Assembly: GCA_944381555.1 (NCBI GenBank)
Contig: CALWLL010000022.1
Span: forward strand, 1 to 64,000
Origin: an uncultured Agathobacter sp.
GTDB taxonomy: Bacteria; Bacillota; Clostridia; Lachnospirales; Lachnospiraceae
Direction: 5' to 3'
Length of the DNA stretch: 64,000 nt
Position 1 is the first letter of the stretch, and every line of letters begins with the position of its first letter. The notes beneath the pieces are model-generated. The model saw nothing but the letters and a program-made list of their open reading frames with translations. It was not told the origin of the DNA and made no database searches. A program made the translations under genes and the position numbers. This document shows positions 48,730-64,000 of this stretch, piece after piece.

Positions 48730-49794
48730 TTATAAGGACAGCAAACCGATTGTTTTTTGAAGCCCCTCCCTAATGTGTACTTTGGCTTTCCAGCCAAGTT
48801 CTTCCAACGCACTGCTATCAAGCAGAGCTTTTGTCGCTTTTGAATATCCGGCAGCTTCAATATCATCCGGCAGGTCAAAAATCACTTTTTTGTTTGAAAT
48901 TTCGGCCAAAATCTCTGCCAAATCTCTTAGCATAATATCGGAATGGCTGTCTGCTATATTATATGCACATTTACTCTTTCCCAGCAACAATATTGTCAAT
49001 ATTCCCATAACGGCGTCTGTTACATAAGTATATGAGTACAACTGACTTCCATCACTCTTTAAGACAATATCTTCTTTTTGGACAGCTTTATGGATAAACT
49101 GTGAGATTGCCTTTGTATCTGATTCCATTACGGTAGGGCCGTATACTCTTGATAATCTTGGAATGACAAAATCAATGCCATATTTCTTCCCGTAAGCATG
49201 GCAAAGCGTTTCACCAAGCCTTTTACTTTCCGGGTATCCTGCACGCAGTGTATTGCAATCTAAATATCCCAGATACTTCTCGTCAAACTTATCCACGTCT
49301 CCCCGGTTTTCTCCGTAAATTTCTACGGATGAGAGAAAAACAAAACGCCTGCAGCCACACTTTACAGATAAATCCAGTAAATATCTGGTACCATCTACAT
49401 TTGCCGTAATCGTTCCGATTGGGTCTGTTGCATACGCAACCGGATGCGTATTGCTTGCAGCATGAATCACATAGTCTGCCTGCTGCGTTATATCTAACGG
49501 TTCTGTAATATCATGTGATATATGGCAAAAATGTGCCTTATCAACCATATACTCCCCGAACCTGCGCTCAGCCCTCTGGGCGCTGCGGCTGACTGCAATG
49601 ATTTTGATATTATCCCAACAGTGCTTATTTCTGTACATCAAAATATCAATCAGCACAGATGCAATCATTCCCGTTGCCCCGCTTATGAGAACCGTCTTAT
49701 TTCTTAAAAGGTTCCAAGGAATACGGTTGTTTAATGCACATTGCCGTATATCCTCTTTATATTCTTCACTCTGTAAAAATCTATTATGCTTCAT
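48730..49794 (-). CDS. NAD-dependent epimerase/dehydratase (extended SDR)
   Basis: A 354-residue nucleotide-sugar-type SDR. NAD-binding motif VLISGATGMIASVL near residue 35; DYVIHAASNTHP, VFLSSVEIYGE and active-site YPESK (Tyr and Lys) follow, then RLSRVYGP and YTYVTDAVMGI, typical of extended SDRs. It would modify a nucleotide-activated sugar or polyol. Its start overlaps the end of the cytidylyltransferase gene by 11 bp, so it may act on that enzyme's CDP-linked product. It is the last gene of the polysaccharide locus. Confidence 0.85.
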   Translation of the reverse strand: MKHNRFLQSEEYKEDIRQCALNNRIPWNLLRNKTVLISGATGMIASVLIDILMYRNKHCWDNIKIIAVSRSAQRAERRFGEYMVDKAHFCHISHDITEPLDITQQADYVIHAASNTHPVAYATDPIGTITANVDGTRYLLDLSVKCGCRRFVFLSSVEIYGENRGDVDKFDEKYLGYLDCNTLRAGYPESKRLGETLCHAYGKKYGIDFVIPRLSRVYGPTVMESDTKAISQFIHKAVQKEDIVLKSDGSQLYSYTYVTDAVMGILTILLLGKSKCAYNIADSHSDIMLRDLAEILAEISNKKVIFDLPDDIEAAGYSKATKALLDSSALEELGWKAKVHIREGLQKTIGLLSL

Positions 49795-50521
49795 TCTTTT
49801 TTCCGTCTCCAGTCTTTAACCAGAAATCCCTTTGCGTTGTGTATAAGGCTTTAAAAATATCAATATCTTCCAGCGTTGTAATTTTTATATTCTTATTAGA
49901 GCCTAATGAAAAGTACAGTTCATCTCCTAAATCGAGCAGCAGCGTATTCGTATATACTGCATTGGTAATTCCACGGCGGACTGCTTCTTTATGCGCCTCA
50001 AGCGCTTTTTTGAATTGATATGCCTGCGGCGTCTGCACCCTCATAATGTCTTTTCTGTCAATTCCATCACTGCCACGTTCTCCATCCTCCGTGCGCATAA
50101 TCGTTTCCTGACATCTGACTGCCGACAGACCGGAGCCATATTCTTTTGCCTTTAAAATGCAGTCTGTAATGATATCTTCACTTATCATAGGTCTGACTGC
50201 ATCATGAATCACTACAATATCATCGTCCTGACAATACTTCTCCAGTTCGAGCAAAGCCTTGCGTGCAGACGCCTGTCCATTCTCGCCGCCTTCTATTACC
50301 CATTTTAGTTTTGTGATACCATATGCCCCTGCATATCCCATTAAAACGTCCGTCCATCCTTCAATGCACGATACGATGACAGCATCAATATCCCTGTGCC
50401 GCTGAAATGCCTCCAGCGTATAAATAATAATCGGTTTTTCATATATTGGAATGAACTGCTTAGGCACAGACTGCTCCGTCCTGCTTCCGCTTCCCCCTGC
50501 CAAAATCAACGCCACATTCAT
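49784..50521 (-). CDS. IspD/TarI-type cytidylyltransferase, paralogue 1
   Basis: A 245-residue CTP-dependent nucleotidyltransferase. The N-terminal loop ALILAGGSGSRTEQSVPKQF contains the catalytic G-G-x-G-x-R and P-K-Q; DDIVVIHDAVRPM and MRVQTPQAYQF are the other family blocks. The family makes CDP-methylerythritol or CDP-ribitol/glycerol. In a polymer locus, formation of a CDP-polyol or CDP-sugar precursor is likelier than isoprenoid synthesis. A second paralogue lies directly upstream. Confidence 0.85.
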   Translation of the reverse strand: MNVALILAGGSGSRTEQSVPKQFIPIYEKPIIIYTLEAFQRHRDIDAVIVSCIEGWTDVLMGYAGAYGITKLKWVIEGGENGQASARKALLELEKYCQDDDIVVIHDAVRPMISEDIITDCILKAKEYGSGLSAVRCQETIMRTEDGERGSDGIDRKDIMRVQTPQAYQFKKALEAHKEAVRRGITNAVYTNTLLLDLGDELYFSLGSNKNIKITTLEDIDIFKALYTTQRDFWLKTGDGKKNEA

Positions 50522-50571
50522 ACGTTCTTCCCTTCATTTTCTTTATTGTACCCTTAAAAGTCTTTTGTCTC

Positions 50572-51282
50572 TTAGCAATAATTACTACCGCTTGTCATGT
50601 CAAACAGTGCCTTAAACATCTCCACATCTTCAACTGTGTTGATTTTAATATTCAGATCCGACCCCTTTGAAAAAGCAATCTCTTTTCCAAGCCGAGACAC
50701 CATATTGTTTGTATCGACCTCATTTAGAATGGATTTTTCCAATGCTTCTTTATGATATTCACATAGATCTCCTAAACGGTATGTTTGAGGCGTCTGTATT
50801 CTTCGGAAAGAATATCTCGATATGGAACTTAATCCTGTTTTTCCGTCTTTTGTCAACATGACATTATCCATTGATGCTACTGCTGAAATTCCCATACCTC
50901 TTTCCTTGCAGGTGACAATACTATCCGAAATAATCTCATTGGTAACTAACGGACGTATGGCATCATGAATAACCACTATGTCATCCTCCTGACACGCTTC
51001 CCTAAGTTTATCTGCCGCCAGCTTTGAGGTTTCCTGGCCATTTATTCCACCTGTAATAATCCACTTTAATTTGGTGATTCCAAACTGCTTTGCATATGCT
51101 TCCACCATCTTCTCCCAGCCGCTTAGGCATGCAACCATGATGGCGTCAATCTCCGGGTGTTTTTGGAATCTTTCCATTGTATACACAATGACCGGTCTGT
51201 TATATACATTTACAAACTGCTTCGGAATGTCCATCTTAAAGGATGGGTCTGTTCCTCCGGCTAAAAGTACTGCTATGTTCAT
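50572..51282 (-). CDS. IspD/TarI-type cytidylyltransferase, paralogue 2
   Basis: A 236-residue homologue of the next gene with the same layout: AVLLAGGTDPSFKMDIPKQF, DDIVVIHDAIRPLV, RRIQTPQTYRL and TVEDVEMFKALF. It differs in the catalytic loop, where G-G-S-G-S-R is replaced by G-G-T-D-P-S, losing the arginine that normally contacts the CTP phosphates. It may therefore be specialised or inactive. The two genes are 50 bp apart and look like an old duplication. Confidence 0.82.
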   Translation of the reverse strand: MNIAVLLAGGTDPSFKMDIPKQFVNVYNRPVIVYTMERFQKHPEIDAIMVACLSGWEKMVEAYAKQFGITKLKWIITGGINGQETSKLAADKLREACQEDDIVVIHDAIRPLVTNEIISDSIVTCKERGMGISAVASMDNVMLTKDGKTGLSSISRYSFRRIQTPQTYRLGDLCEYHKEALEKSILNEVDTNNMVSRLGKEIAFSKGSDLNIKINTVEDVEMFKALFDMTSGSNYC

Positions 51283-51329: not shown

Positions 51330-52343
51330 TTAACACCACGAGCCCTCAAAATGATGGACTGCGACTGTGGCATTCGTCTTCATACATTCATTCGTTTCCT
51401 TGATCATTGGTGCTAAAACCTGATACGGATAAATAGTTATTCCGTCTATAACCTGATACTTTCCATTATTCACATATCCGTGCTTATGAAACGTCTCAAT
51501 TTCTTTTCCCAGACTCGTCGTGTAATAGAGAAGATTGCTGCTGTCTAATTGCTCATACACACTCATAAGCTCCTTAACAAACGGATGGCCTTTTACTGCG
51601 CCAAAGCCAGAACCTTCATTGATACCTCCCGAAACCTCTGTTCCAAAAAAAGCTTCATTTTGTCGCAATATGTCTAAGGACTGTAACAATTCCACATCCG
51701 TGTCCATATAAATACCACCATGCTGATATACAACATCAAGCCTTACATAATCCGGCAAATGCGCCCATCTTCTGTTTGCATACGCTTCTCTTGTATATGG
51801 TATCTTATCAACGTCATAATTCTTTTCATTCCAGCAAATAAATTCATAGTCCGGACATAATTTATGCCAATTATCAACTTCACGCCTCAAATGTGCGGGC
51901 ATTTCTTTTCCGCCAAACCAGCAATAATGTATTCTTTTGGGAATAACAGCTTCCGATAGACTTGTATGTAATACTTCATATGTATCGGTGCTATTTTTCT
52001 TTAAATCATGATAGGAATATATCTCTACACGGTTAAAATAGTCTATATTCTGAATCTGCTTTAAAACATCCTGATAAAATGCCGTTGTAATCAGCAGCAC
52101 AATCTCCTCCGGTTTGTATTGCTCCATTATTGCGCCAATAGATAATACCGGAATGTACTCTTCCCCAACGGCTATACATTTTCCGTTTTTTCCAGAATCG
52201 TTATCAATAACTCCCCATACCTTAAAGTCTTTATTTCTGTATGTAAAATCATGATACATAATATGAAAATAACTGCCCGCACCAAAACAGATAATTTTTT
52301 TACTTTTTCTCCAAATAAATTCGTCCAATTCCTTTTTACCCAT
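51330..52343 (-). CDS. GT32-type glycosyltransferase with N-terminal Rossmann module
   Basis: A 337-residue fusion. Residues about 10-115 form a small nucleotide-binding-like module: KKIICFGAGSYFHIMYHDF, then WGVIDNDSGKNGKCI and PEEIVLLITTAFYQDVLKQI. Residues 130-337 form a glycosyltransferase of the capsular/OCH1 (GT32) type: IPKRIHYCWFGGKEMPAHL, CPDYEFICWNEKNYDV, LPDYVRLDVVYQHGGIYMDTD, where D-T-D is the metal-binding DxD. It would transfer a sugar from a nucleotide donor to the growing polymer in the cytoplasm. The module is shared with eight neighbours. Confidence 0.88.
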   Translation of the reverse strand: MGKKELDEFIWRKSKKIICFGAGSYFHIMYHDFTYRNKDFKVWGVIDNDSGKNGKCIAVGEEYIPVLSIGAIMEQYKPEEIVLLITTAFYQDVLKQIQNIDYFNRVEIYSYHDLKKNSTDTYEVLHTSLSEAVIPKRIHYCWFGGKEMPAHLRREVDNWHKLCPDYEFICWNEKNYDVDKIPYTREAYANRRWAHLPDYVRLDVVYQHGGIYMDTDVELLQSLDILRQNEAFFGTEVSGGINEGSGFGAVKGHPFVKELMSVYEQLDSSNLLYYTTSLGKEIETFHKHGYVNNGKYQVIDGITIYPYQVLAPMIKETNECMKTNATVAVHHFEGSWC

Positions 52344-52356
52344 CTTATCACTCTTC

Positions 52357-53283
52357 TCAATTTACTTTTTCCAATAAAGTTATACAATCTAAATCCTTGT
52401 AGCCCCAGTCGATAACCTGCTGTTCAACAACAGTAAATCCTGCCCGGTATGCCAGATGGGCAAATATTTTTTTACTCATAAAATTACGTCCTTTTTTCGA
52501 GTATTCAAAAGAAGCCTTATAATCCTCATCATTATTGGAATGATGTATCAGCGCTTTTCCGCCCGGGACTAATACGCGATAGATGTCAACTAAGTATTCA
52601 TAGATGTCTATCAATTCAAAATGAACCATTGCATCATAAGAAAACAGCGCTGTATATTCGCCGCTTTTGAGTTCTTTCAGGTTATATCCGTCATTGCAGT
52701 AATAACTAATATTTGAGACATCTGAAAATCTGCTCCGGCAGAAATCTATATTTTTCTGCAAAATGTCAACCAAAGTAATTCTTCCTGCTTTATCTATATA
52801 TTGTTTTACATGCCTTCCCCTTCCGCAGGCGAGTTCTATAACATTAGTCAGATCTAACTGTGAAAATAAACGATAAAACTCTGTTTCCGCATTCCAGAAG
52901 CCATCCAACTCTGTTTCCGCATCTTCAAAATAAGCATCCATATTATCAATATGAAAAAATGCACAGTACTCTCTGTTAAACTCAACCTTATTTTTGTTTA
53001 CCAAATGAGCAAGTTCATCCAATGCGCAATATTCCCTGCCATCTGCATCCAGCATATCGCATATCTCTTCTGCCCCAACAGCTACAGCAATAATAAACTT
53101 TGCCCCCAGCTCTTTGGCTTCCTGATAACTGTATACTTTTTTATCATATACGCTCTGAATTTCTTTATGACGTTTATCACAAAATCCGATGATATAAGCG
53201 CTTAATCCCTGATTTTTTAAGAACTCATAACACCCCTTTCCCTGTCTGCCTGCACCATAAATAATATATCTATCCTCTGTCAT
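52357..53283 (-). CDS. SAM-dependent methyltransferase with N-terminal Rossmann module
   Basis: A 308-residue fusion. Residues 1-80 carry the module: RYIIYGAGRQGKGCYEFLKN, IIGFCDKRHKEIQS, AKFIIAVAVGAEEI. After a linker, a class I methyltransferase begins at about residue 135: VIELACGRGRHVKQYI (motif I), ITLVDILQKNIDFC, YTALFSYDAMVHFE and VLVPGGKALIHHSNND. It probably methylates a sugar or polyol of the polymer, perhaps capping it. It ends 13 bp before the GT32 gene. Confidence 0.85.
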   Translation of the reverse strand: MTEDRYIIYGAGRQGKGCYEFLKNQGLSAYIIGFCDKRHKEIQSVYDKKVYSYQEAKELGAKFIIAVAVGAEEICDMLDADGREYCALDELAHLVNKNKVEFNREYCAFFHIDNMDAYFEDAETELDGFWNAETEFYRLFSQLDLTNVIELACGRGRHVKQYIDKAGRITLVDILQKNIDFCRSRFSDVSNISYYCNDGYNLKELKSGEYTALFSYDAMVHFELIDIYEYLVDIYRVLVPGGKALIHHSNNDEDYKASFEYSKKGRNFMSKKIFAHLAYRAGFTVVEQQVIDWGYKDLDCITLLEKVN

Positions 53284-53309
53284 TTTCTAATCCTTCTCAC
53301 ATTTGTTTT

Positions 53310-54509
53310 TTAATCCTGATTTTCTATCCATTGCGGCAATTTTGTATTTGTTAATGCTTTTTCTTTAATCCAATCAATCTTTTCTTCACTGATTCCTTTT
53401 GAAACCATTTCATCTTTGATCTTTACCGCCAATTCTTCATTTAAGATTGCAATCAGCATAATATCAAATTCCTGTTCTGCCGCCTCATCAATACTGATTA
53501 CATCTATTCCCTGCTTTCGTAGGGATTCATAATGCAAATCTGACAATACGGCAACCTCTATATGCTCTTTCTGCTCACAATACAATCTAAGAGTGTTTCC
53601 AAAGCCTCCAAGTCCGTAAATGGCAATCTTCATTCCGGCCTTTACTTTCTCATAAGGAAACAACACGCTGCCACTTTGTATTTTCTCATATCCCTTTACC
53701 AGCAACAGAAACCACATATAAAGCTTCAATTGTGCATTGAGCATCGCTTCGGACTTTCTATCCAGCTTTTTAAATTTCTTTTTTAAAAGATGATAAATTT
53801 TGATAAAATTATCATTTGCTGCCGGTTTATTTGTTCTGACAATTGACCCGTTCCTCTGCCGGTAATGATAGCACAGAAGATTGGATACAAAAATGGATTC
53901 TGCATCAATGATACACGGAAATATACATGCTGCATCCTCCCCATAAACAACTGCATCCTCCACCTTCTTCTGATTTTCTATCAGCACTTCCCGTTTAATC
54001 AGTTTATTGCACAAAGAGGGAGAAATCCCAAACTCAAAAAAATTATCACACATAAGCATTTTTGAATACAGCTTTGACAGCTCTTTGGGCGCCGAATAAT
54101 ATCCCTCCGGTATTTTATTCGGTTTCGGTACACGATACCCTTCATACTCCTCATAATACCCATATGCAATAATATCTGCATATCTTCCGATTGAGATTAG
54201 CTGTTCATATGTGTTTTCGTCTATCCAATCATCCCCGTCCACATAGGTAACATATTCCCCGTCTGCATATTCTAACCCTTTTTTTCTTGCGCTGACAAGT
54301 CCTCCGTTTTTTTTATGAATAACTTTAATCCTGCTGTCCAAAGCTGCGTATCTGTCACAAATTACACCGCTTAAATCCGTAGAACCATCATCAACGAGGA
54401 TAATCTCAAGATTGGTGTAAGTCTGATTTAAAACACTGTTCACACACGCAGTAAGATAATCCTGCACATTGTAGATTGGAATAATTACACTAATTAAGAT
54501 ACTCTTCAT
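53310..54509 (-). CDS. GT2 glycosyltransferase with C-terminal Rossmann module
   Basis: A 399-residue fusion. The N-terminal GT-A domain has SVIIPIYNVQDYLTACVNSV, ILVDDGSTDLSG and the D-x-D in YVTYVDGDDWID. Residues about 295-390 form the module: MKIAIYGLGGFGNTLRLYCE, EVAVLSDLHYESL, FDIMLIAILNEELAVKIKDE. There is no membrane helix, so it acts in the cytoplasm on an inverting mechanism usual for GT2. It is 12 bp from its neighbour, within one transcript. Confidence 0.88.
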   Translation of the reverse strand: MKSILISVIIPIYNVQDYLTACVNSVLNQTYTNLEIILVDDGSTDLSGVICDRYAALDSRIKVIHKKNGGLVSARKKGLEYADGEYVTYVDGDDWIDENTYEQLISIGRYADIIAYGYYEEYEGYRVPKPNKIPEGYYSAPKELSKLYSKMLMCDNFFEFGISPSLCNKLIKREVLIENQKKVEDAVVYGEDAACIFPCIIDAESIFVSNLLCYHYRQRNGSIVRTNKPAANDNFIKIYHLLKKKFKKLDRKSEAMLNAQLKLYMWFLLLVKGYEKIQSGSVLFPYEKVKAGMKIAIYGLGGFGNTLRLYCEQKEHIEVAVLSDLHYESLRKQGIDVISIDEAAEQEFDIMLIAILNEELAVKIKDEMVSKGISEEKIDWIKEKALTNTKLPQWIENQD

Positions 54510-54521
54510 CCTTCTTTATCC

Positions 54522-55796
54522 TTATTTAAACTGCTGGCGGTATTCTTTCTGCATCATATAATATAATTCTATCCTATCATAATCTATACAGAAATCCTTA
54601 CCATACCCCAATGCTTCCACATATTTGTATATCTGTGACTTATACTTACAACTGACAGCTATCAGTATCCCTGTACTGCCCTCTGCTAATTCTTTTTCAT
54701 AATTTTCTATTGTTTTTATGGGATAATCTCCCATTTTCTTTGGAGTGTCCGCTGTAATATCTGTGACTGCAAATCCAAGCACTCTCTGATTCATATTTTC
54801 TTCAAGCAGTTCCAAGGCTTTTTTCCCATAATGACCGGCTCCGTAAATCACGATATTTCTAAATCGCCGCAATCCGGTTCCTTCCTTTTGCGCCTCAAAA
54901 TAGTATTTCTGTATCTCTTCTTTTGTAGTTAATGGACCACTATCTTTTGCCTTACAATCAGTCCGTAGTTGATTTATTTCCTTCAGGGCAGCGATTATTG
55001 CTCTGTCATTACGCAGAACATAATATGAAACAACATTTCTCATCTCACCATATGTCAACTGCTCTGTCTGACTCCGATACAAATCCCATAAATGATTATC
55101 CGCAGCAAGGCGCATTACATCTTTATATCCGCGCAATACATCCAGTACCACTTCTCTAGTATATTTTACTTTTTTATGCATGATACGATATGTATAAACT
55201 GTTTCCGCAACAGCATGGAAACGCTTTGCTGTTGTCATGGCTTTTACAAAGAAAACAGGATCCTCATATCTTTTATACTGTGGGAAAAATATTTTATTTG
55301 TTACTAAAAATTCTCTGGAATAAATATATTTATGAAACCAATAGGATTCCTGTAGCTTTTCATAATCTAAATCTTCCTCCCCGCTAAATTGAATATTCTC
55401 TGCCTTCTTATAACTGCCTTCTGCCTTCATTAGCAGATTCCCGCCGCAAATATTCTTTTGGCTGCTTTCTGCGGAGGTATACAATTTGCGTAAGGTATCC
55501 TGATGCGGATAGCAGTCATCCGCATCCATAAAAGCGATATATTTCCCGGATGCATATTCTATTCCTCTGTTTCTGGCCGCACCCGCACCTTGATTCTCCT
55601 GCCTTAAAAGTTTTATGTAAGGAAATGCTTTCCGGTATGCCTCAATAATCGAAACCGAGCCATCTGTAGAACCATCATCGATACATATAATTTCAATATC
55701 CTGTAACGATTGCTGTACGACACTGCCAAGACACTCTTTTAGATAGGTTTCTGCATTATAAACCGGTATGATTACTGATATTGTACTATCTTTCAT
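54522..55796 (-). CDS. GT2 glycosyltransferase with C-terminal Rossmann module
   Basis: A 424-residue fusion starting at 55796 behind GGAGGG; the longer frame from 55847 lacks a ribosome site. GT-A blocks: SVIIPVYNAETYLKECLGSV, CIDDGSTDGSV, KYIAFMDADDCYP. The module occupies about the last 110 residues: RNIVIYGAGHYGKKALELLE, VLGFAVTDITADTPKKMG, TGILIAVSCKYKSQIYKYVE. Its start overlaps the end of the WcbI-type gene by 11 bp. Confidence 0.88.
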   Translation of the reverse strand: MKDSTISVIIPVYNAETYLKECLGSVVQQSLQDIEIICIDDGSTDGSVSIIEAYRKAFPYIKLLRQENQGAGAARNRGIEYASGKYIAFMDADDCYPHQDTLRKLYTSAESSQKNICGGNLLMKAEGSYKKAENIQFSGEEDLDYEKLQESYWFHKYIYSREFLVTNKIFFPQYKRYEDPVFFVKAMTTAKRFHAVAETVYTYRIMHKKVKYTREVVLDVLRGYKDVMRLAADNHLWDLYRSQTEQLTYGEMRNVVSYYVLRNDRAIIAALKEINQLRTDCKAKDSGPLTTKEEIQKYYFEAQKEGTGLRRFRNIVIYGAGHYGKKALELLEENMNQRVLGFAVTDITADTPKKMGDYPIKTIENYEKELAEGSTGILIAVSCKYKSQIYKYVEALGYGKDFCIDYDRIELYYMMQKEYRQQFK

Positions 55797-56940
55797 ACGA
55801 ATCCCTCCAACACCACCAGATGTATTCCCGTACATATTCTTCCACATCCATAGACGCTGCTGCTCTTTTTTCTGATTTTACCCGGATTTCGTCTTCTTCC
55901 CATGCTAAACCAAGAACTTTCTTGACCCATGAATACACCGGAATCTCATGCGAATCCAGACATTTTTCCGTATAAACCTCTTCCGTAATTCCCAATATTT
56001 CTAATATTCCTTTGGAAATCATCTTCAAAACTGCGTTTGCTGGATGTCCGGCATCATAAAAAAGTTTTTCCTGCTTATAATTATCAAGAATAAAATCTAC
56101 CACTTTAATATCCCATGCTTTTTCACGCTCACGCATTTTCAATATATATTCATGAAAGTTATCTTCTATCTCTTTGCGGGGTATAATGTTATCCTGTTCT
56201 ACATATTGACAAATCTGGTTCACGCTCATTTTACGCCGGAGACAATTTTCAATCACATAATCTCTATAAGGAAACATTCCGTTTTTGTCCTTTCCGTTCA
56301 GCAAAGCGCAATTATTTGGATTCTCCTGCTTTGCATACGGAAAGAATGCTGCGCCATATCCAAATAAATTAGGAACCACAATTTCTATAACGTTATGAAC
56401 GTTATGCTTCATATATTCATCCGAATATTGATAACCATACCCGTTATCTGGCCGAATATCCTGATGAACCCATATATCCATATACTGCATTATCTCTTTA
56501 TCAATAACAGGCTTTTCAAAAATCCTCGGCACAAAATAGACGATATAATCCTCTTGAAACTGTCTGGATGATTGCAGATAGGATTCCACAATATCCATGT
56601 GGCAGTTTCCGAAAATAAATACTAGCTTTTTGTCCAGATAATTAAAATATATAAAATCCTCAAACTCTGCTTTTTCCATTTGAACCAGACGTTCCCTGAT
56701 TTTTGGGTATATCCGGGGAGGGCAGGCAGCTATTATGTATTTTCCCTGTAATAATTCCCGCTTTGGAGCATATACTTTATAATTAGCAAAATCTCCGTAA
56801 TCTCCATCGTCATCAATCATAAACTCAACGGATACTCCATTTTGTTCCAGATAATAAATACATTTGGCAGCAAATGAGCCTGTACCATATACTACTATTT
56901 CTTTGTCTCTGATTTTTTCCAATAAAATCACGGTTTTCAT
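55786..56940 (-). CDS. WcbI-type polysaccharide biosynthesis protein with N-terminal Rossmann module
   Basis: A 384-residue fusion. Module at residues 8-105: KEIVVYGTGSFAAKCIYYLE, VEFMIDDDGDYGDF, YIIAACPPRIYPKIRERLVQ. From residue 108 the chain resembles WcbI, a capsule protein of SGNH-like fold thought to acylate sugars: LVFIFGNCHMDIVESYL holds the G-N-C-H motif and FYDAGHPANAVLKMI the late H-P. Other relatives carry WcbI alone or beside glycosyltransferases. Acyl transfer is an inference from the family. Confidence 0.75.
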   Translation of the reverse strand: MKTVILLEKIRDKEIVVYGTGSFAAKCIYYLEQNGVSVEFMIDDDGDYGDFANYKVYAPKRELLQGKYIIAACPPRIYPKIRERLVQMEKAEFEDFIYFNYLDKKLVFIFGNCHMDIVESYLQSSRQFQEDYIVYFVPRIFEKPVIDKEIMQYMDIWVHQDIRPDNGYGYQYSDEYMKHNVHNVIEIVVPNLFGYGAAFFPYAKQENPNNCALLNGKDKNGMFPYRDYVIENCLRRKMSVNQICQYVEQDNIIPRKEIEDNFHEYILKMREREKAWDIKVVDFILDNYKQEKLFYDAGHPANAVLKMISKGILEILGITEEVYTEKCLDSHEIPVYSWVKKVLGLAWEEDEIRVKSEKRAAASMDVEEYVREYIWWCWRDSYER

Positions 56941-56966
56941 CCATCCCTTCTGCCTGCCATATGGAA

Positions 56967-58406
56967 TTAGCCATTTAATAAACTCTCACTTACTGCTGTG
57001 ATGTCATATATATCCCTTTCATCATATAACAAACAAATATGTTCCTCACAAATTCCCTGCTGAAGCAACGCTGCCTTCATCTCCTCCTGATACACCTTGC
57101 TTGAAATGACAAATTGAGTACTATCCTGCGGTAAGTGATTATACAAAAACACCTGCCTGTCCATAAAAGTTTTTTTCGTATCACCTGATGTAATGATAAA
57201 ATATAACTCACATTCTATGCTTCCTATAAAATGCCGGTATAGCTTCAACAAGGCATCCGTATGTTTTCCGATTCCATATATCCCTATTTTTTCCGTTTTT
57301 TTACCTAAAGGAATCTTAATCAGCATATTCACAATGTATTGCCTGTTTTCTGCAAATAAACTATCATAATATTCTATAAAGCATGATTTATCCAGCCAGT
57401 ATTTATGAATCAGATTATCATACTCTCCAGATTCCATTTCTTTTCTGATTTGATATAGGATTACCAGCAAGCCAGTGCTGTCAAAGCTGTCTGCATCGAT
57501 GTTCTTATTTATCACATCCCATTTTTCAAAGAATTTCTCTATTAACTTCTTTTTTTGTTCCCGCACGAAATTATCATTGTTACACATGCCTAATCGGTTT
57601 ATCATCATGGCTGTCTGATATATTGCAAACTTCCGGGCAAGCAGTACATTCTCATTTAGAAAATCTTTTTCATAAATATATGAAACCATTAATTCCTGGG
57701 TTTTAACCAAATCCCGGTACTTTATTTCACTCATCGCGCCCGTCATAATGGAATTTTCTCTATACCGCCTGATGTAAAGCGAATCCGGCAATACTGTTGT
57801 TTTATCCGCATTTAGTATTACTTGCAGACTAAAAAAGTTGTCCTCAAAATACATTCCATGCGGAAATACAATTTTATGCGTATTCAGAAATTCTCTCTTA
57901 TAAGCCGCCATACATGCAGAAACAATATAATAATTGGGAAAGACCTGTTCAAAATACTCTATTCCCGACATTATACCTTCATTTTGAAGCGCTTTTCTAT
58001 GATATTCATTCTGATTCATATTGACTTTAAAATCGAATACTACATCTGCACTATAGTACAAGACATCCACCCGGCAAGTCTTCAGCTTTTCTTTTACAGC
58101 AGAAACCAAGCGCAGGCTAACGTAATCATCTGAATCAATAAATACAATATAGTCGGCGCGTGAATGTCTCAGCCCCGTATTTCTTGCTGCTGCCAATCCC
58201 TGATTTTCTTGATTTACCAGTACAAAATTAGAAAATCTCTCCTTATATGACTGACATATCTGCAAGCTGTTGTCTGTAGAACCGTCATTTATTAAAATAA
58301 TCTCATCAAACGGAGTTTCCTGCATAGCTAAACTATCCAGACATTGCTCTAAATATTCTTCTACATTATATACCGGTACAATTGCGCAAACTGAAGATTT
58401 TTCCAT
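56967..58406 (-). CDS. GT2 glycosyltransferase with C-terminal Rossmann module
   Basis: A 479-residue fusion. GT-A blocks: CAIVPVYNVEEYLEQCLDSL, ILINDGSTDNSLQ, YIVFIDSDDYVS (D-x-D), GMYFEDNFFSLQVI. The module lies at about residues 370-465: EKIGIYGIGKHTDALLKLYR, CELYFIITSGDTKKTF, TQFVISSKVYQEEMKAALL. It is the longest of the four GT2 proteins because of a helical insert between the two domains. Confidence 0.87.
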   Translation of the reverse strand: MEKSSVCAIVPVYNVEEYLEQCLDSLAMQETPFDEIILINDGSTDNSLQICQSYKERFSNFVLVNQENQGLAAARNTGLRHSRADYIVFIDSDDYVSLRLVSAVKEKLKTCRVDVLYYSADVVFDFKVNMNQNEYHRKALQNEGIMSGIEYFEQVFPNYYIVSACMAAYKREFLNTHKIVFPHGMYFEDNFFSLQVILNADKTTVLPDSLYIRRYRENSIMTGAMSEIKYRDLVKTQELMVSYIYEKDFLNENVLLARKFAIYQTAMMINRLGMCNNDNFVREQKKKLIEKFFEKWDVINKNIDADSFDSTGLLVILYQIRKEMESGEYDNLIHKYWLDKSCFIEYYDSLFAENRQYIVNMLIKIPLGKKTEKIGIYGIGKHTDALLKLYRHFIGSIECELYFIITSGDTKKTFMDRQVFLYNHLPQDSTQFVISSKVYQEEMKAALLQQGICEEHICLLYDERDIYDITAVSESLLNG

Positions 58407-58458
58407 ACATCTCCCCTTCCAAAATAGTAATAGGCCGAACCAGTGGCTTATTTCCTCT

Positions 58459-59604
58459 TTACATGTATATATTTTTGTAATACAGATACGTCTGCCATGT
58501 GCAATAATGATTGATTTTCTGCTCCGATAACTGCTGCATGATTTCGGGAATATATCTGCGGCCTACCGCAATGATTATGGTGTACTTATCAACGTCCTTT
58601 TTGAGCGTCTCGACAGACTTCACATCTAATCCCAATATTTGCGTTCCGATCTTTGTTGGATCGTTGTCAATAAAACCGGCCGTACGCTCACCTAAAATAT
58701 CTGCTGCTTTTTTTCCAGATTCTCCCGCACCGAAAATCAGAACTGTTTTTTTACGTTTTGCTTCATCTGTAAAAAGCGATCTGGCCACATCCGCATCCTG
58801 CTTGATAAATGGAGAACATTCCTCTATTTCCTTTAAATGCTCCTGTTCTCCATACATTCTTTCTATTGCATCATAGTAAATCTGGCTTAATACAAAAAAA
58901 GAAGCCTGTGCAGATTTCATGATATACTTCCAATGCTTTTTTCTAAGCGCTGCAAGGTTTCTGTTTATCATTTCCTTTTTCGTTGCAGTAAGGCTTCCCT
59001 GATGTATTCTGTATTCATACAATACTTCGGGGATATATCCGGCACTTCCGAAGTTTTCCTCTATGCGGAGCCAATAATCATAATCCTCTACGCCATACAG
59101 GCTGGTATCATACTGTCCCACTTTCCGATATACTTCTTTTCTGTATAAAAAACAGGCTCCGATATTATTTGTTATAACCAGAGGTTCCTCCATTTCCACA
59201 TGATACCCGCTTACCAAACGACCTTCCGCATCTATCCCTCTCATTGCAGACTTTACCATGTACTTTTGGGGATGCTTATCTAAGTACCCGGTCATTACAG
59301 CTAGTGCGTTCGGTAAATACCGGTTATCATCTGAAGTCCATGTAAGATATTCTCCTTTTGCATACTCAAATCCAATATTCAAAGAAGCCGGAAGTTTTTT
59401 ATTTGCTTTATTATGAATCACCCGAATACGCGCATCCTTCTTTGAAAATTCTTCTGCAATCTTTGGGGTATTATCTGTTGATGCATCATTTACAATAATA
59501 AGCTCCCAATCCTGAAATGTCTGGGCTGCTATGCTTTCAATTGATTGCCTGATATATTGTTCGCCATTGTATGTTGGAAGAACAATTGAAACCTTTGTTT
59601 CCAT
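58459..59604 (-). CDS. GT2 glycosyltransferase with C-terminal Rossmann module
   Basis: A 381-residue fusion and the clearest example of the module. GT-A blocks: SIVLPTYNGEQYIRQSIESI, IIVNDASTDNTPKI, YLTWTSDDNRYLP. The module, from about residue 285, reads KTVLIFGAGESGKKAADILG, TAGFIDNDPTKIGTQILGLD and YTIIIAVGRRYIPEIMQQLS, close to PglD N-terminal domains including the G-F-x-D-N-D-P-x-K-x-G strand. It precedes its neighbour by about 50 bp and follows wecB by 5 bp. Confidence 0.9.
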   Translation of the reverse strand: METKVSIVLPTYNGEQYIRQSIESIAAQTFQDWELIIVNDASTDNTPKIAEEFSKKDARIRVIHNKANKKLPASLNIGFEYAKGEYLTWTSDDNRYLPNALAVMTGYLDKHPQKYMVKSAMRGIDAEGRLVSGYHVEMEEPLVITNNIGACFLYRKEVYRKVGQYDTSLYGVEDYDYWLRIEENFGSAGYIPEVLYEYRIHQGSLTATKKEMINRNLAALRKKHWKYIMKSAQASFFVLSQIYYDAIERMYGEQEHLKEIEECSPFIKQDADVARSLFTDEAKRKKTVLIFGAGESGKKAADILGERTAGFIDNDPTKIGTQILGLDVKSVETLKKDVDKYTIIIAVGRRYIPEIMQQLSEQKINHYCTWQTYLYYKNIYM

Positions 59605-59609
59605 ACATT

Positions 59610-60719
59610 CTATTCCTTTTCTGCAAAATATCTTAAAATTATCCCGGCTATTCTCTCTGACGCCTGTCCATCTCCATACGGATTTGATGATAAACTCATT
59701 CTTTGATACTCTTCTTTGTCCGTTAAAAGCCTTACGGTTTCGTCATAAATGCGCGTTTCGTCCGTCCCCACAAGTTTTAGTGTTCCCGCCGCAATCCCTT
59801 CCGGTCTTTCTGTTGTATCTCTCATTACCAAAACAGGCTTCCCCAGCGAAGGAGCTTCTTCCTGTATCCCTCCGCTGTCTGTTAAGATAAGAAAACTTCT
59901 TGCCATATAATTATGAAAATCCATAACATCAAGGGGGTCTATCAGACGGATTCTGTCATGATTTCCTAATTCTGTATCTGCTATTTCACGCACAACCGGA
60001 TTTAGATGTACCGGATAGATAACTTTAACATCCGAAAATTCATCCACTACCCTCTTGATCGCGCGAAACATATGATGCATTGGTTCTCCAATGTTTTCAC
60101 GTCTATGTGCAGTCACAAGCAACAGTCTTGAATTCCCCAGCCACTTAAAATCTTCATTTTCGTAATCCTCAATAACCGTTGTTTTCATTGCATCTATTAC
60201 CGTATTGCCTGTAACATAAATCTTTTCTTTTGCTTTTCCCTCTTTCAGCAGATTTTCCTTTGCTGTTTGAGTTGGAGCAAAGTACAAATCCGCAATTAAA
60301 TCCACTGCCTGCCGGTTAAATTCTTCCGGATACGGCGATTTCATATTATAGGTACGCAAGCCCGCTTCTACATGTCCAACTGCAATTCCTGCATAAAACC
60401 CGGTCAAAGCCGCGGCAAAGGAAGTCGTGGTATCTCCATGCACTAAGATAATGTCTGGTTTTTCTTCCTGAACAATATGTCCTAACGTATTTAGCACACT
60501 TGTTGTAATAGAGCCTAATGTTTGCTTCTGCTTCATAATATGCAGATTATAATCTTCACGCACGCCAAATACCTTCATTACCTGCATGAGCATTTCCTCA
60601 TGCTGTCCAGTAAGGCATACGCAGCATTCTATATTTTTATGTTTTGCCAATTCCAAGATAACCGGACACATTTTAATTCCTTCCGGCCGTGTACCAAATA
60701 CTGCAAGAACTTTTATCAT
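59610..60719 (-). CDS. wecB: UDP-N-acetylglucosamine 2-epimerase (non-hydrolysing)
   Basis: A 369-residue enzyme beginning MIKVLAVFGTRPEGIKM at 60719. It starts inside the end of the upstream gene and has only a weak ribosome site, so it is probably translationally coupled. Conserved blocks: LTGQHEEMLMQVM, DIILVHGDTTTSFAAAL, HVEAGLRTYN, PYPEEFNRQAVDLIADLYF, VTAHRRENIGEPM, DSGGIQEEAPSLGKPVLVMR. It converts UDP-GlcNAc to UDP-ManNAc, a building block of linkage units and secondary wall polymers. It lacks the extra module. Confidence 0.95.
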   Translation of the reverse strand: MIKVLAVFGTRPEGIKMCPVILELAKHKNIECCVCLTGQHEEMLMQVMKVFGVREDYNLHIMKQKQTLGSITTSVLNTLGHIVQEEKPDIILVHGDTTTSFAAALTGFYAGIAVGHVEAGLRTYNMKSPYPEEFNRQAVDLIADLYFAPTQTAKENLLKEGKAKEKIYVTGNTVIDAMKTTVIEDYENEDFKWLGNSRLLLVTAHRRENIGEPMHHMFRAIKRVVDEFSDVKVIYPVHLNPVVREIADTELGNHDRIRLIDPLDVMDFHNYMARSFLILTDSGGIQEEAPSLGKPVLVMRDTTERPEGIAAGTLKLVGTDETRIYDETVRLLTDKEEYQRMSLSSNPYGDGQASERIAGIILRYFAEKE

Positions 60720-60727
60720 CGTATCAC

Positions 60728-62539
60728 TTACTTTCTGTCTTTTGTGCCTATCCATGCTAGAAATAGACCTTCTATCTGCTCATTTTCATAATGGATACTG
60801 CGTTTTACTTCCACCCTGACTCCATTATCAGACATCATTTCTGCCAATTTATCCGCATCAAACCACTGTTCCCACTCTTCTATCAGAATACTTCCGAGTT
60901 TTTCTATATTCTTATCAATCACAACTATTTTACCGCCTGGTTTTGTAACCCGAACCAACTCTTTTATTGCACTTCCGATATCTATAGCATGTTCCAATGC
61001 TTCGCAGGTATAAACAACATCAAATGTTTCATCACTGTATGGAATATTCGTTAATGCACCTTGCTTTTTTTCCATTACCTGTTCCGACACATTCCGCAAA
61101 ACATTTTGTGATATATCAACGGAAAAATAATTATTGTCCGGATATTGCTCAATTAAATTCTTTAAATATCTTCCTTTTCCACATCCCACATCACAGATGT
61201 CAATATTGGTTCCTGCTCCTGCAACAATTTCTTGTACAATTTGATATCTTCCATCCCCTTTGCCTATATCTTCGCAAAAGGATTCTGCCAAGTTCTCAAA
61301 CTCAGCCAGATTTTTATAATAAAGCGCATCAAGGAAAAACTTGACTGCCCAGCTTATTTCCTCCGATGGAAAATAATCGTTTACCTCATCTCTGCTGTTC
61401 TGGCTTAAATAGCTTCCATACCAGCCGCCCGTATCGTTCTGTAATTTACACGCATATTCAAACGCTGCCTGTCCGTGCTTTATATCTCCTAACCGGAACC
61501 AGATCATTGCCAGTTGAAATAAGCCGGTTGAACAAACCCAGTCTGCATCCGCATAACCGGGAACTGCTCCGTTTTCTTTCTGATATCCGGCCATATTGTT
61601 CATTGCCTTAACGGCAATATCCACTTCTCCTAAATCGATCATTGCCTCTATGACGTAAGCATGAAAATGTGACAGTAATGTAAAATTGATTATATCGTCA
61701 TAATAATGCTCTTTATAATAGTTCAGGATTTTCTTTGCCTTTATCTTATATTCTTCACATTGAAAAACTTCTCCTGCCTGTATAAGAGGAGAAATGCAAT
61801 ATATATGTATGATTTCCGAACACGTTCTTTTCTCCCCCCATGCATCTGTTGCCGGAGTTATCAGTCTTCCGTCCGGTGACATTTTACTTAATATCCAGTT
61901 ACATCCCCGCCTGATATGTTCATCTGCTTCCGGCAGCAACTCCCTGATTGCAAGCAATCCTTTTAGAACCTGCGCGGAATCAAAAATATACGGAGCCTTA
62001 TTATCCGTGTCATACCATGCACCGTCTTCTTTTTGAATCTCACATAGCCATTTCGCATAAATTATAGCCAAATCACGGTATCCCCATTGCAGCAGCGTTG
62101 GAATATAGTAACCAGTAACCTCAGGATATGGAAGCCGCTTGCACGAATGGCATATGATTCCCTTATCCTGTATGCTGTTTGCAAGTATCCAGTTTATTGC
62201 TTTCCTGTAAATGCCTAAATAGTCTGGACGCTGAGTCATTTTTTGTCTTATCGTTTCAGCATGAAAATCATTTACCGTAATGTAATTGCTGATACCTTTG
62301 CTGTCTAACTGCTCCATAATCTGCTTTTGAAAACGCACTGATACTGTGATAACAATGAAATATCTTTGCAGCTCTTTCTCTACGTCGGATACTGCAAAAA
62401 CAGGAATCCCCTGTATTGTCTTTCCCCGCTTTGCCAAGTCGTTATCCAGAAAAAAGGCTATTTTTTCTTTTCCGATAAGCTCTGCTGTTTTTTCTCCTAT
62501 ATCCCCCGCTCCAAAAAGGATCATCTTCTGATCGTTCAT
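60728..62539 (-). CDS. Three-domain fusion: Rossmann module, alpha/alpha toroid and SAM methyltransferase
   Basis: A 603-residue protein from the ATG at 62539 (MNDQKMILFGAGDIGEKTAE); the frame reaches a TTG at 62560. Module at residues 1-100, with IAFFLDNDLAKRGKTIQGIP and RYFIVITVSVRFQKQIMEQL. Residues about 110-430 are helical repeats like an (alpha/alpha)6 toroid: TGYYIPTLLQWGYRDLAIIY, KWLCEIQKEDGAWYDTDNK, QLAMIWFRLGDIKHGQAAFE, LQNDTGGWYGSYL. The final 170 residues are a class I methyltransferase: IDICDVGCGKGRYLKNLIEQ, VVYTCEALEHAIDI, VTKPGGKIVVIDKN. The toroid may bind glycan or a polyprenyl group. I know no characterised protein with this order. Confidence 0.8.
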   Translation of the reverse strand: MNDQKMILFGAGDIGEKTAELIGKEKIAFFLDNDLAKRGKTIQGIPVFAVSDVEKELQRYFIVITVSVRFQKQIMEQLDSKGISNYITVNDFHAETIRQKMTQRPDYLGIYRKAINWILANSIQDKGIICHSCKRLPYPEVTGYYIPTLLQWGYRDLAIIYAKWLCEIQKEDGAWYDTDNKAPYIFDSAQVLKGLLAIRELLPEADEHIRRGCNWILSKMSPDGRLITPATDAWGEKRTCSEIIHIYCISPLIQAGEVFQCEEYKIKAKKILNYYKEHYYDDIINFTLLSHFHAYVIEAMIDLGEVDIAVKAMNNMAGYQKENGAVPGYADADWVCSTGLFQLAMIWFRLGDIKHGQAAFEYACKLQNDTGGWYGSYLSQNSRDEVNDYFPSEEISWAVKFFLDALYYKNLAEFENLAESFCEDIGKGDGRYQIVQEIVAGAGTNIDICDVGCGKGRYLKNLIEQYPDNNYFSVDISQNVLRNVSEQVMEKKQGALTNIPYSDETFDVVYTCEALEHAIDIGSAIKELVRVTKPGGKIVVIDKNIEKLGSILIEEWEQWFDADKLAEMMSDNGVRVEVKRSIHYENEQIEGLFLAWIGTKDRK

Positions 62540-62569
62540 TTCCCAATTCCCGTCTTTCAATAAATATAT

Positions 62570-63046
62570 TTAGCTTATTTCATAAATTACATCTTCCAGC
62601 GAAATAACAGGGCAGTCAGCATATTGAGACATCTCTCTCTCTATCTCACCAAAATAATGTATTGCCGTTACTACTATTACATCAACAGGCTCCATCTGTT
62701 CATCCGGCGAATATATATCAATATCTGCCAGCAATTTCTCTTTATCTTTGTCAATCGCATACTTTACTTCTATTTCGGAATCCTTAAGTTCCGCATAAAG
62801 CCTTTCTCCCAATTCCTTCATTCCGTAAATTGCAACCGTTTTATAATTATTCCTTTTAAAATACTGCTCCAAGGATTTCCCCTGTTGTTTTACTTCTAAC
62901 CATGTTACCAGAATATTATAAAACTCGGACATCTTTATAAGACTCTCCTGTTTCGCCTTTAACTCTTTCTGGTTAATATAATTAACTGCGGCTCCGCCTG
63001 CCAGCGCGCCGGTTATGGTAGTTAATACCGGAATTATTTTCTTCAT
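62570..63046 (-). CDS. Membrane-tethered stand-alone Rossmann module
   Basis: A 158-residue protein from 63046, with GGAG 6 bases upstream. A short N-terminal hydrophobic segment (IIPVLTTITGALAGGAAV) is followed by a charged helix and then the same module seen fused to enzymes around it: KTVAIYGMKELGERLYAELK, VKYAIDKDKEKLLADIDIYS, VDVIVVTAIHYFGEIEREMS. There is no catalytic domain. The third Gly of the motif is conserved while the second is replaced by Lys or Glu. A scaffold or anchor role is plausible. Confidence 0.75.
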   Translation of the reverse strand: MKKIIPVLTTITGALAGGAAVNYINQKELKAKQESLIKMSEFYNILVTWLEVKQQGKSLEQYFKRNNYKTVAIYGMKELGERLYAELKDSEIEVKYAIDKDKEKLLADIDIYSPDEQMEPVDVIVVTAIHYFGEIEREMSQYADCPVISLEDVIYEIS

Positions 63047-63083: not shown

Positions 63084-63142
63084 GCTTTGAGCCAGACAGC
63101 GCACAGACTCAAAGCGCCGTGTGAAAGATTTATTTTTCACAC
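63084..63142 (-). other. Two hairpins between the pyruvyltransferase-like gene and the tethered module gene
   Basis: GCTTTGAG/CTCAAAGC (63084-63115) and GTGTGAAA/TTTCACAC (63119-63142) each make an 8-bp perfect stem. Neither has a T-run. They may slow or process the operon transcript. Confidence 0.5.
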
Positions 63143-64000
63143 TACATCCTCTCGATCATACTTTTTGTTTTGCTTACTATGTTCTTCTTTTGTTTTTCTA
63201 ATATTTCTTCATTGCATTTCCAGAATGAACCGGATTCGTAAACAGCCTCAACTGCATCAAACACTTGCGCTCTGCCATCTACCCCTTTGAATTGAACCGG
63301 AACTGCGTATTGCAAGGCAGGAATTGTTGCGTGAACCAAGTCTGTGTATACACAATCCGCATTCGCATAAAGAGTAAGATAATCATATGGAGAGTCTGAC
63401 AGGAAAAAATTTTGTTTCATATTTTTCATGTTTTCTCTGAAGCTATATGGGAAATGAAATGGTCTTACAATCTTTTTCGGCCAATCCCCATTTCCAAAGA
63501 TATCCGGTTCTTTTGAACGGTTATATGCCACAATATCATATTCACCTGCCGTATCTAATTTGGGATAATATGTATCTTTAATCCAAAATGCGCAGTCAAT
63601 TGCCTGCATACAATTACATACCGACTCATAGTTTTTATATGTTGCCGCATCTCTGGTTGTTATCAACACAGGATTTAGCTTATCTAACACCTTTTTAACT
63701 TTTTCGCACTCTGTATCGTCATACTTCTCTCCGCCTAAACCCAGAAAAATCAATTTTGCTCCCCGCTTAACAAATTTATGCAGCATTTTATAGGTAATCC
63801 AGTCCGTATCGGCAAATCCTTCTGTTGCGAGCATTCCCGCCAGCACCACATAATCTCCTGTAAAGTCTTCACTCATATCATAACAGTTTAAAAGAACTTC
63901 TTCTGCTGCGTTATTGAATTTAGAATACATAAAATTCATATGACTGAAATTAACTACTTTTTTATCCGGGAAGATTTGCTTTAATAGCTCCATTGCCCCA
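63142..64000 (-). CDS. Polysaccharide pyruvyl transferase-like protein (5' end outside window)
   Basis: At least 283 residues are visible (from an ATG at 63993), and the frame is open to the window edge, so the true start is probably beyond it. Blocks match the PS_pyruv_trans family: DYVVLAGMLATEGFADTDWI, KLIFLGLGGEKYDD, LITTRDAATYKNYES, and the late ANADCVYTDLVHATIPALQY, where the family's D-R-x-H/S-x-I-x-A pattern reads DLVHATIPA. It would add a ketal pyruvate to a sugar, or act as a related glycosyltransferase. No extra module is seen. Confidence 0.7.
   Translation of the reverse strand, partial: GAMELLKQIFPDKKVVNFSHMNFMYSKFNNAAEEVLLNCYDMSEDFTGDYVVLAGMLATEGFADTDWITYKMLHKFVKRGAKLIFLGLGGEKYDDTECEKVKKVLDKLNPVLITTRDAATYKNYESVCNCMQAIDCAFWIKDTYYPKLDTAGEYDIVAYNRSKEPDIFGNGDWPKKIVRPFHFPYSFRENMKNMKQNFFLSDSPYDYLTLYANADCVYTDLVHATIPALQYAVPVQFKGVDGRAQVFDAVEAVYESGSFWKCNEEILEKQKKNIVSKTKSMIERM

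Follow-up and report, generated by a model that had tools for sequence, protein, structure and literature searches.

We analysed a 64,000-nucleotide stretch of DNA from an uncultured Agathobacter sp. (hereafter the window; positions 1-64000 of contig C22, CALWLL010000022.1, 82,134 bases, in assembly G000, GCA_944381555.1, which totals 2.31 Mb) and found that nine proteins (p1-p9), all encoded in a minus-strand gene run spanning 48.7 to ~68.9 kb of the contig, carry one homologous Rossmann-like module of ~80-90 residues. The fold and single examples of it (2g6t, 2py6) are already known; what appears to be new is that enzymes throughout one glycosylation island have the module in common. We interpret it as a docking part: chain-acting enzymes would be held together in the cytoplasm and work as an assembly line on a single acceptor, which is probably flagellin awaiting export. 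We favour this reading tentatively and regard it as close to an even call.

A sequence-only reading of the window had proposed that nine open reading frames (ORFs) share a module, and the starts it gave stand, as does the sharing itself. Our main profile was built from 594 modules of 80 named loci (loci around p9 relatives, 80 kept of 117, with 56 of the 80 titled Lachnospiraceae) and contained no row from the window, although the search that supplied its rows had started from the nine. Of 158 ORFs encoded anywhere on the contig, inside or outside the window, it placed the nine above all others, with domain E-values from 3.5e-22 to 6.3e-7 (p6 lowest), followed by an ORF at 25352 that matched half of the profile only (3.1e-5), while the best reversed ORF reached 0.1. 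Leave-one-out searches with the nine sequences alone found seven of them again at E<=2.3e-5; p1 scored less well (0.0012) and p6 poorly (0.031, or 0.27 when only the correct domain is counted), and the ORF at 25352-26740, which lies outside the locus and is presumably a TrkA-type Rossmann protein, scored above both. That ORF also reached 9e-8 in another profile search, so that profile specificity is imperfect, and the weak matches outside islands fell in frames of ~205-245 amino acids (aa), presumably Rex, or of 628-651 aa, presumably WbpM/CapD-type dehydratases. We rejected the possibility that any Rossmann protein scores, as the precursor families of short-chain dehydrogenases/reductases (SDR), zinc dehydrogenases and GFO/IDH proteins gave 0 matches; that the SDR and zinc dehydrogenases, themselves Rossmann enzymes, never score argues for a specific profile. 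Pfam detects the module faintly, with PglD_N at E<0.005 in four of the nine and the CoA_binding cut-off exceeded in p7 and p8.

The module is N-terminal in the GT32, methyltransferase, WcbI and toroid proteins, C-terminal in four GT2 proteins and stand-alone in one, just as the earlier reading had placed it (Table 1), whereas the motifs which that reading ascribed to all nine are present only in part: a literal D(N/D)D occurs in four, the acid column is D in seven, V in p4 and T in p6, and the second glycine is K in p9. Among 635 modules, the first glycine is kept in 97%, the acid after strand 2 in 82% and the second glycine in 76%, and some proteins contain tandem copies. The stand-alone p9, for which a predicted structure model gives a confident Rossmann module, had been described as sitting behind a membrane segment; this segment is weak, its best 19-residue mean hydropathy being 1.49 against a threshold of 1.65 that is exceeded by 68 of 96 short relatives.

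Evaluating the rest of the genome with a profile that included the nine, we found nine strong matches (E<=1.2e-14), all at the locus, and outside it only a 235-aa frame at E 9e-8, with no further match under 1e-3. The module was present on 4/4 GT2 domains within the locus versus 0/12 elsewhere (n=16), and in seven other island-bearing genomes on 11/13 island GT2 domains versus 0/137 outside, among the GT2 domains listed (150 of 175 rows; only the 1 kb on the 3' side of each domain was considered, and the module matches themselves defined the island limits). The module is a mark of the island rather than of the enzyme family. Comparable islands occur in four same-genus genomes, one of which (G004) has 20 module-bearing ORFs at 63-98 kb of one contig. 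Across the order, 72 of 117 genomes match at E<=1e-6, many through single Rex-like frames and others through dense clusters, and across the phylum, where at most 17 candidates were scored per genome, 28 of 299 match at E<=1e-11. In 27 of the phylum genomes (G000 excluded), 63 of 76 matches lay <=15 kb from another, against a mean of 2.7 and a maximum of 12 over 500 random placements, such that the locus-level clustering anticipated by the sequence-only reading is found in many genomes.

The p9 family is itself conserved (745 of 901 candidate proteins at E<=1e-5), and the 80 loci around its members (L151 and L156 lie outside these analysed loci) carry the module on 586 of 1,389 ORFs, with at least two modules in 78 loci. 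As these loci were picked through p9, this density is not unbiased, and the phylum survey is the less biased of the two. Such loci also occur in Acetatifactor muris DSM 23669 (L087) and Butyrivibrio proteoclasticus (L079), both of them cultured. Nearly all module ORFs match the strand of the tethered copy (582/586), as do ORFs in general (1,346/1,389), and the module is N-terminal in 234, C-terminal in 205, short in 118, internal in 23 and multiple in 6 of the 586.

We then assessed the enzymes to which the module is fused, grouping the proteins of the 80 loci according to what remains outside the module and annotating each family from one representative (for partner annotation we also drew on samples comprising 115 of the 468 ORFs with the module and 125 of the 729 without). 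The Pfam partners include GT2, GT4, GT32, GT-D, RgpF, WbsX, DUF4422, WcbI, FkbM and other methyltransferases, as well as CDP-glycerol-type transferases, LicD, DUF268, DUF1919, NKWYS, GDSL, radical SAM and a cytidylyltransferase-like domain. Summed over the 80 loci, with classes defined after the annotations had been seen, 335 of 530 chain-acting transferases bore the module and none of 129 proteins in eight sugar-precursor families did; a family-level test, in which relatives are not counted repeatedly, gave p 8e-5. Family by family the split was close to all-or-none, with the module on most members of FkbM (48/49), RgpF (26/28), GT-D (15/16) and WcbI (10/12), while the module-free precursor families included SDR epimerases (0/50), DegT aminotransferases (0/26), ribulose-phosphate epimerases (0/15) and CTP_transf_3 (0/12). 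Other families were mixed within islands (GT2 130/188, GT4 34/109, WbsX 8/13). Among families of at least six ORFs, these sums leave out hexapeptide proteins (7/23), radical SAM (7/15 and 3/12), phosphoenolpyruvate (PEP) mutase/nucleoside triphosphate (NTP) proteins (3/15), Asn synthase (0/13) and six families with no Pfam match (0/21, 0/13, 0/12, 0/9, 11/12 and 5/6); 389 ORFs in small clusters, 97 of them with the module, are left out as well.

Where these fusions came from is suggested by their nearest relatives. Among the 273 of 467 fused modules that could be compared (excluding the tethered (T) type described below, and 194 dropped because a class was missing for them or their relative), the closest module sat on the same enzyme class in 229 cases, 227 of them in another locus, and in the same locus in 3; four modules are present twice (L094/L095 are near-identical and two G004 stretches overlap), making 229 high by a few. 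Because nearest relatives are on the same enzyme class and rarely in the same locus, the fusions are old and inherited with each enzyme, with islands gathering genes that already bear the module, and the repeated independent fusion within one locus that had been suggested earlier is not supported by these data. The T type, which includes p9, is distinct and has an extra helix; WbsX, GT2, GT4 and FkbM proteins, too, can carry it, as their C-terminal domain. Separately, a protein at L026:17528-19510 combines 13 predicted membrane spans with a C-terminal module, perhaps another way to tether the module to the membrane.

The description of the locus as a polysaccharide locus has become doubtful, since the window island lacks a phosphoglycosyl transferase and any ORF with at least six predicted membrane spans (scanned over 48.2-68.9 kb), and several relatives lie near flagellin. 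The single PF02397 match of the genome (E<=1e-5) is on contig C7, in a locus where the same scan finds polytopic ORFs and where no module occurs. ORFs with at least six predicted spans were likewise absent from 78 of the 80 loci and from within the module span at 23 further module places. A Wzx/Wzy capsule locus would hold a phosphoglycosyl transferase, flippase and polymerase, a set not found in the window island, whose content is instead that of a flagellin glycosylation island: it encodes transferases, enzymes that modify sugars and enzymes that supply sugar precursors, and it lacks export genes. In 16 genomes chosen among the module-rich ones, rather than drawn at random, flagellin was present in all, and in 12 a flagellin-type gene lay on the modules' contig, 2-40 kb away, accompanied in nine of the 12 by what we take to be an FlgL-type gene. 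For G016 and G022 the nearest was a short flagellin-like gene, the typical flagellins of G016 lying 8-10 kb away. Taking one genome per genus in nine genera, and counting two unlinked ones as p = 1, this linkage has a combined p of 2e-4. Outside the order, one genome (G432) has two flagellin-type genes ~1 kb from its first module gene. With a flagellin-type gene near the modules in 12 of 16 genomes, the module islands are probably flagellin glycosylation islands. The window island is linked to flagellin-adjacent islands in G093, G109 and G140 by an 823-aa protein that recurs in them, a candidate initiating transferase. This protein (contig C22 66463-68934, equal to L007:3463-5934) has no Pfam match and never carries the module, and members of its family occur in 21 of the 80 loci (20 of the 21 match its profile).

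Under the docking reading, modules would bind each other or a common partner, the stand-alone copy would anchor the assembly where present, and the partners would share the growing glycan rather than a substrate or cofactor. The acceptor would be flagellin, a step that is conjectural above all for the window, whose genome has its flagellins on other contigs. What speaks for docking is that the module is confined to the island and clusters in many genomes, that the partners are so unlike one another, that copies occur in tandem and that most precursor enzymes lack the module; as the partners do not all use one reaction or cofactor, it is easier to account for them by a common place or acceptor than by a common substrate. 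We also count in its favour a report that the accessory domain of the large phosphoglycosyl transferase WbaP, which has a similar fold, forms a dimer interface and, for flagellin in particular, that polytopic ORFs are nearly absent, that a flagellin-type gene is nearby in 12 of the 16 chosen genomes and that the 823-aa protein recurs in flagellin-adjacent islands. Recruiting parts are to be expected in flagellin glycosylation, since flagellin is engaged by Maf-1 through a tetratricopeptide repeat (TPR) domain and by Maf-2 through its partner GlfM, as described in PMC13317340. A role of the module for the whole pathway, as the sequence-only reading had it, is likely.

Several observations weigh against docking on flagellin. 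In certain chain-acting families most members are without the module (GT11 2/18, one methyltransferase family 0/12, CDP-glycerol-type 2/11, and GT4 as given above), while some precursor-like proteins have it (the 3/15 of the PEP-mutase/NTP family, which is mixed, and a cytidylyltransferase-like protein of G016). Modules of different classes in the same locus are hardly more alike (21.1% identical) than permuted ones (20.5%; 5 of 500 permutations reach 21.1%), and the best conserved positions, those of the glycine loop together with the acid that follows strand 2, form a ligand pocket rather than another surface. Of 20 module-rich genomes, 12 have no T-type match of any form at E<=1e-5 and 3 have the short stand-alone form (frame 168-176 aa), so that docking to the tethered copy, as first suggested, cannot be a general rule. 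Flagellin lies on other contigs in G000, G004, G014, G130 and G082; none was found in the 80 named loci, which extend up to 10 kb to either side, or on the window contig, nor in the stretch read at 11 of 23 other module places; and the flagellin cluster of G000 carries no module. In that cluster (C39 23-36 kb; L154, L155), two large GT2 proteins are encoded along with an FlgL-type gene, again without the module.

The main rival reading takes the module as a nucleotide sensor whose glycine-loop pocket would take up uridine monophosphate (UMP), uridine diphosphate (UDP) or a dinucleotide and so tune each enzyme, as proposed for the accessory domain of WbaP. Its conserved pocket favours a ligand, yet all four signature positions are kept in just 46% of N-terminal and 56% of C-terminal fused modules (T type excluded), the acid is lost in 21/21 modules with a DUF4422 partner, and the second glycine is lost in 93% of 101 stand-alone T modules. 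Moreover, many partners are methyltransferases or radical SAM proteins that release no nucleotide, and eight families of nucleotide-using precursor enzymes are without the module; the sensor is, in our judgement, unlikely. Because the WbaP domain is reported both to form a dimer interface and to bind nucleotides, docking and ligand binding may combine.

Two further explanations seem to us quite improbable, the second slightly more so. Each enzyme might grip flagellin or a chaperone by itself through the module, in a TPR-like role and with no enzyme-enzyme contact, which would suit both the preference for chain-acting enzymes and the flagellin-type genes near modules in 12 of the 16 chosen genomes; against this stand the lack of strong conservation beyond the ligand loop, the strand core and one helix (~20% mean identity), the distance of flagellin from the window island, and the consideration that enzymes extending or methylating distal sugars would need no protein contact. 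Alternatively, the module might have no joint role and be an ordinary subdomain of these lineages, clustered through gene exchange mostly among glycosylation islands. The class-wise pattern of nearest relatives and the almost nil likeness within a locus agree with such a history, which leaves unaccounted for why the module sits at either end of many unrelated folds, sometimes in tandem or alone, why families inside islands occur both with and without it (GT2, GT4, WbsX), and why none of the 137 listed GT2 domains outside islands has it. Extending the docking reading, we propose as a possible, if rather speculative, picture a 'glycosylosome' in which enzymes of unrelated folds would be joined by the common Rossmann docking module, with the tethered copy as anchor in some lineages, to build flagellin glycans.

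Among known systems, the PglD N-terminal domain (PF17836; PglD/NeuD/VioB sugar acyltransferases) had been named as a likeness. The likeness is seen in the four Pfam-detected copies, of which p7 exceeds the cut-off, and a genome search with PglD_N gave 6 places at E<=10, 3 of them over the cut-off, all at this locus; VioB (7txp) also matches the module profile. The difference, as the earlier reading recognised, is that none of the nine has the hexapeptide (left-handed beta-helix) acyltransferase domain, although the hexapeptide-family proteins of the 80 loci include module carriers. The C2185-like N-terminal domain (PF22674; PDB 2G6T, Clostridium acetobutylicum) is an uncharacterised structure whose description does not include sharing across the enzymes of a locus, and no window copy reached its cut-off (p3 E 0.025). 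The accessory domain of large phosphoglycosyl transferases such as WbaP (PF13727; 8t53) has a similar fold, yet the Pfam search gave no PF13727 match at E<=1, and that domain sits in one membrane enzyme whereas the module is spread over a locus; it is, according to PMC10942596, a dimer interface and uridine-nucleotide binder, with UMP inhibiting the enzyme. The NAD-binding domain of the Rex redox sensor is a Rossmann module of the same type, matching in sequence and structure, but the partners here are glycan enzymes and no winged-helix DNA-binding domain occurs in the nine. In 2py6, an FkbM methyltransferase, residues 52-122 give a weak match to the profile (E 0.41). As described in PMC5109656 and PMC13317340, the flagellin glycosylation islands of Geobacillus and Clostridium contain variable sets of transferases, methyltransferases including FkbM, and sugar-precursor genes; in the main texts of these papers the words 'Rossmann' and 'fused' are absent; those islands are flagellar loci, while the window island is not beside flagellin. 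We found no description of a module common to a whole glycosylation island in one open-access library, from which most subscription papers are missing.

How the enzymes of a variable island find one another and one acceptor is a question for which the module offers a direct handle, as it can be deleted, swapped or used as bait. If the module docks, it would be a natural plug for building glycan pathways, and if the glycosylosome picture is true, new enzymes would join once they bear the module, which would explain the free swapping of enzymes among islands. In searches of Lachnospiraceae and other Firmicutes-type genomes, the module can also be used as a sequence marker by which to find such glycosylation islands.

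Table 1. Genes of the window island, with the position of the module where one is present
Gene	Product and features	Module	Coordinates	Strand	Basis
p1	GT32-type glycosyltransferase (PF04488, PF05704)	N-terminal, 52020-52307	51330..52343	-	Pfam + profile
p2	S-adenosylmethionine (SAM) methyltransferase	N-terminal, 53020-53280	52357..53283	-	Pfam + profile
p3	GT2 glycosyltransferase	C-terminal, 53370-53639	53310..54509	-	Pfam + profile
p4	GT2 glycosyltransferase; second-strand acid lost	C-terminal, 54582-54866	54522..55796	-	Pfam + profile
p5	WcbI-family protein (PF18588)	N-terminal, 56653-56910	55786..56940	-	Pfam + profile
p6	GT2 glycosyltransferase; most divergent of the nine	C-terminal, 57030-57299	56967..58406	-	Pfam + profile
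p7	GT2 glycosyltransferase; exceeds PglD_N and CoA_binding Pfam cut-offs	C-terminal, 58492-58755	58459..59604	-	
p8	Toroid-like region (SQHop_cyclase_C match) and C-terminal methyltransferase domain	N-terminal, 62270-62536	60728..62539	-	
p9	Stand-alone copy (T type); weak N-terminal hydrophobic segment, long helix	62594-62848	62570..63046	-	
	UDP-GlcNAc 2-epimerase family (PF02350); precursor supply within island	none	59610..60755	-	
	SDR epimerase; precursor supply	none	48730-49794	-	
	Two IspD-like cytidylyltransferases; precursor supply	none	49784-50521 and 50572-51282	-	
	Polysaccharide pyruvyl transferase family; continues past window end	none	63142..63999	-	

Beyond the window, the gene run continues to ~68.9 kb with an FrhB-type protein, a second pyruvyl transferase and the 823-aa protein. 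Alternative starts exist for p4 and p9, which have longer upstream ones, and for p8, which has an upstream TTG at 62560. The toroid protein p8 (60728-62539), in which the earlier reading had correctly seen the N-terminal module and missed the C-terminal methyltransferase domain, combines three parts, with a squalene-cyclase-like toroid between these two. Elsewhere among the 80 loci, three recurrent island families have neither a Pfam match nor the module, exemplified by L047:3662-4102 (0/13), L038:10463-11452 (0/12) and L075:102-701 (0/9). Islands were also found on contigs titled Muribaculaceae and Bacteroides (L074, L094), and as L094 has identical modules in common with L095 (titled Lachnospiraceae), these titles are probably binning errors. 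The two cytidylyltransferases at 49784-51282 are adjacent paralogues, with relatives in which the IspD-like part is fused to an SDR epimerase.

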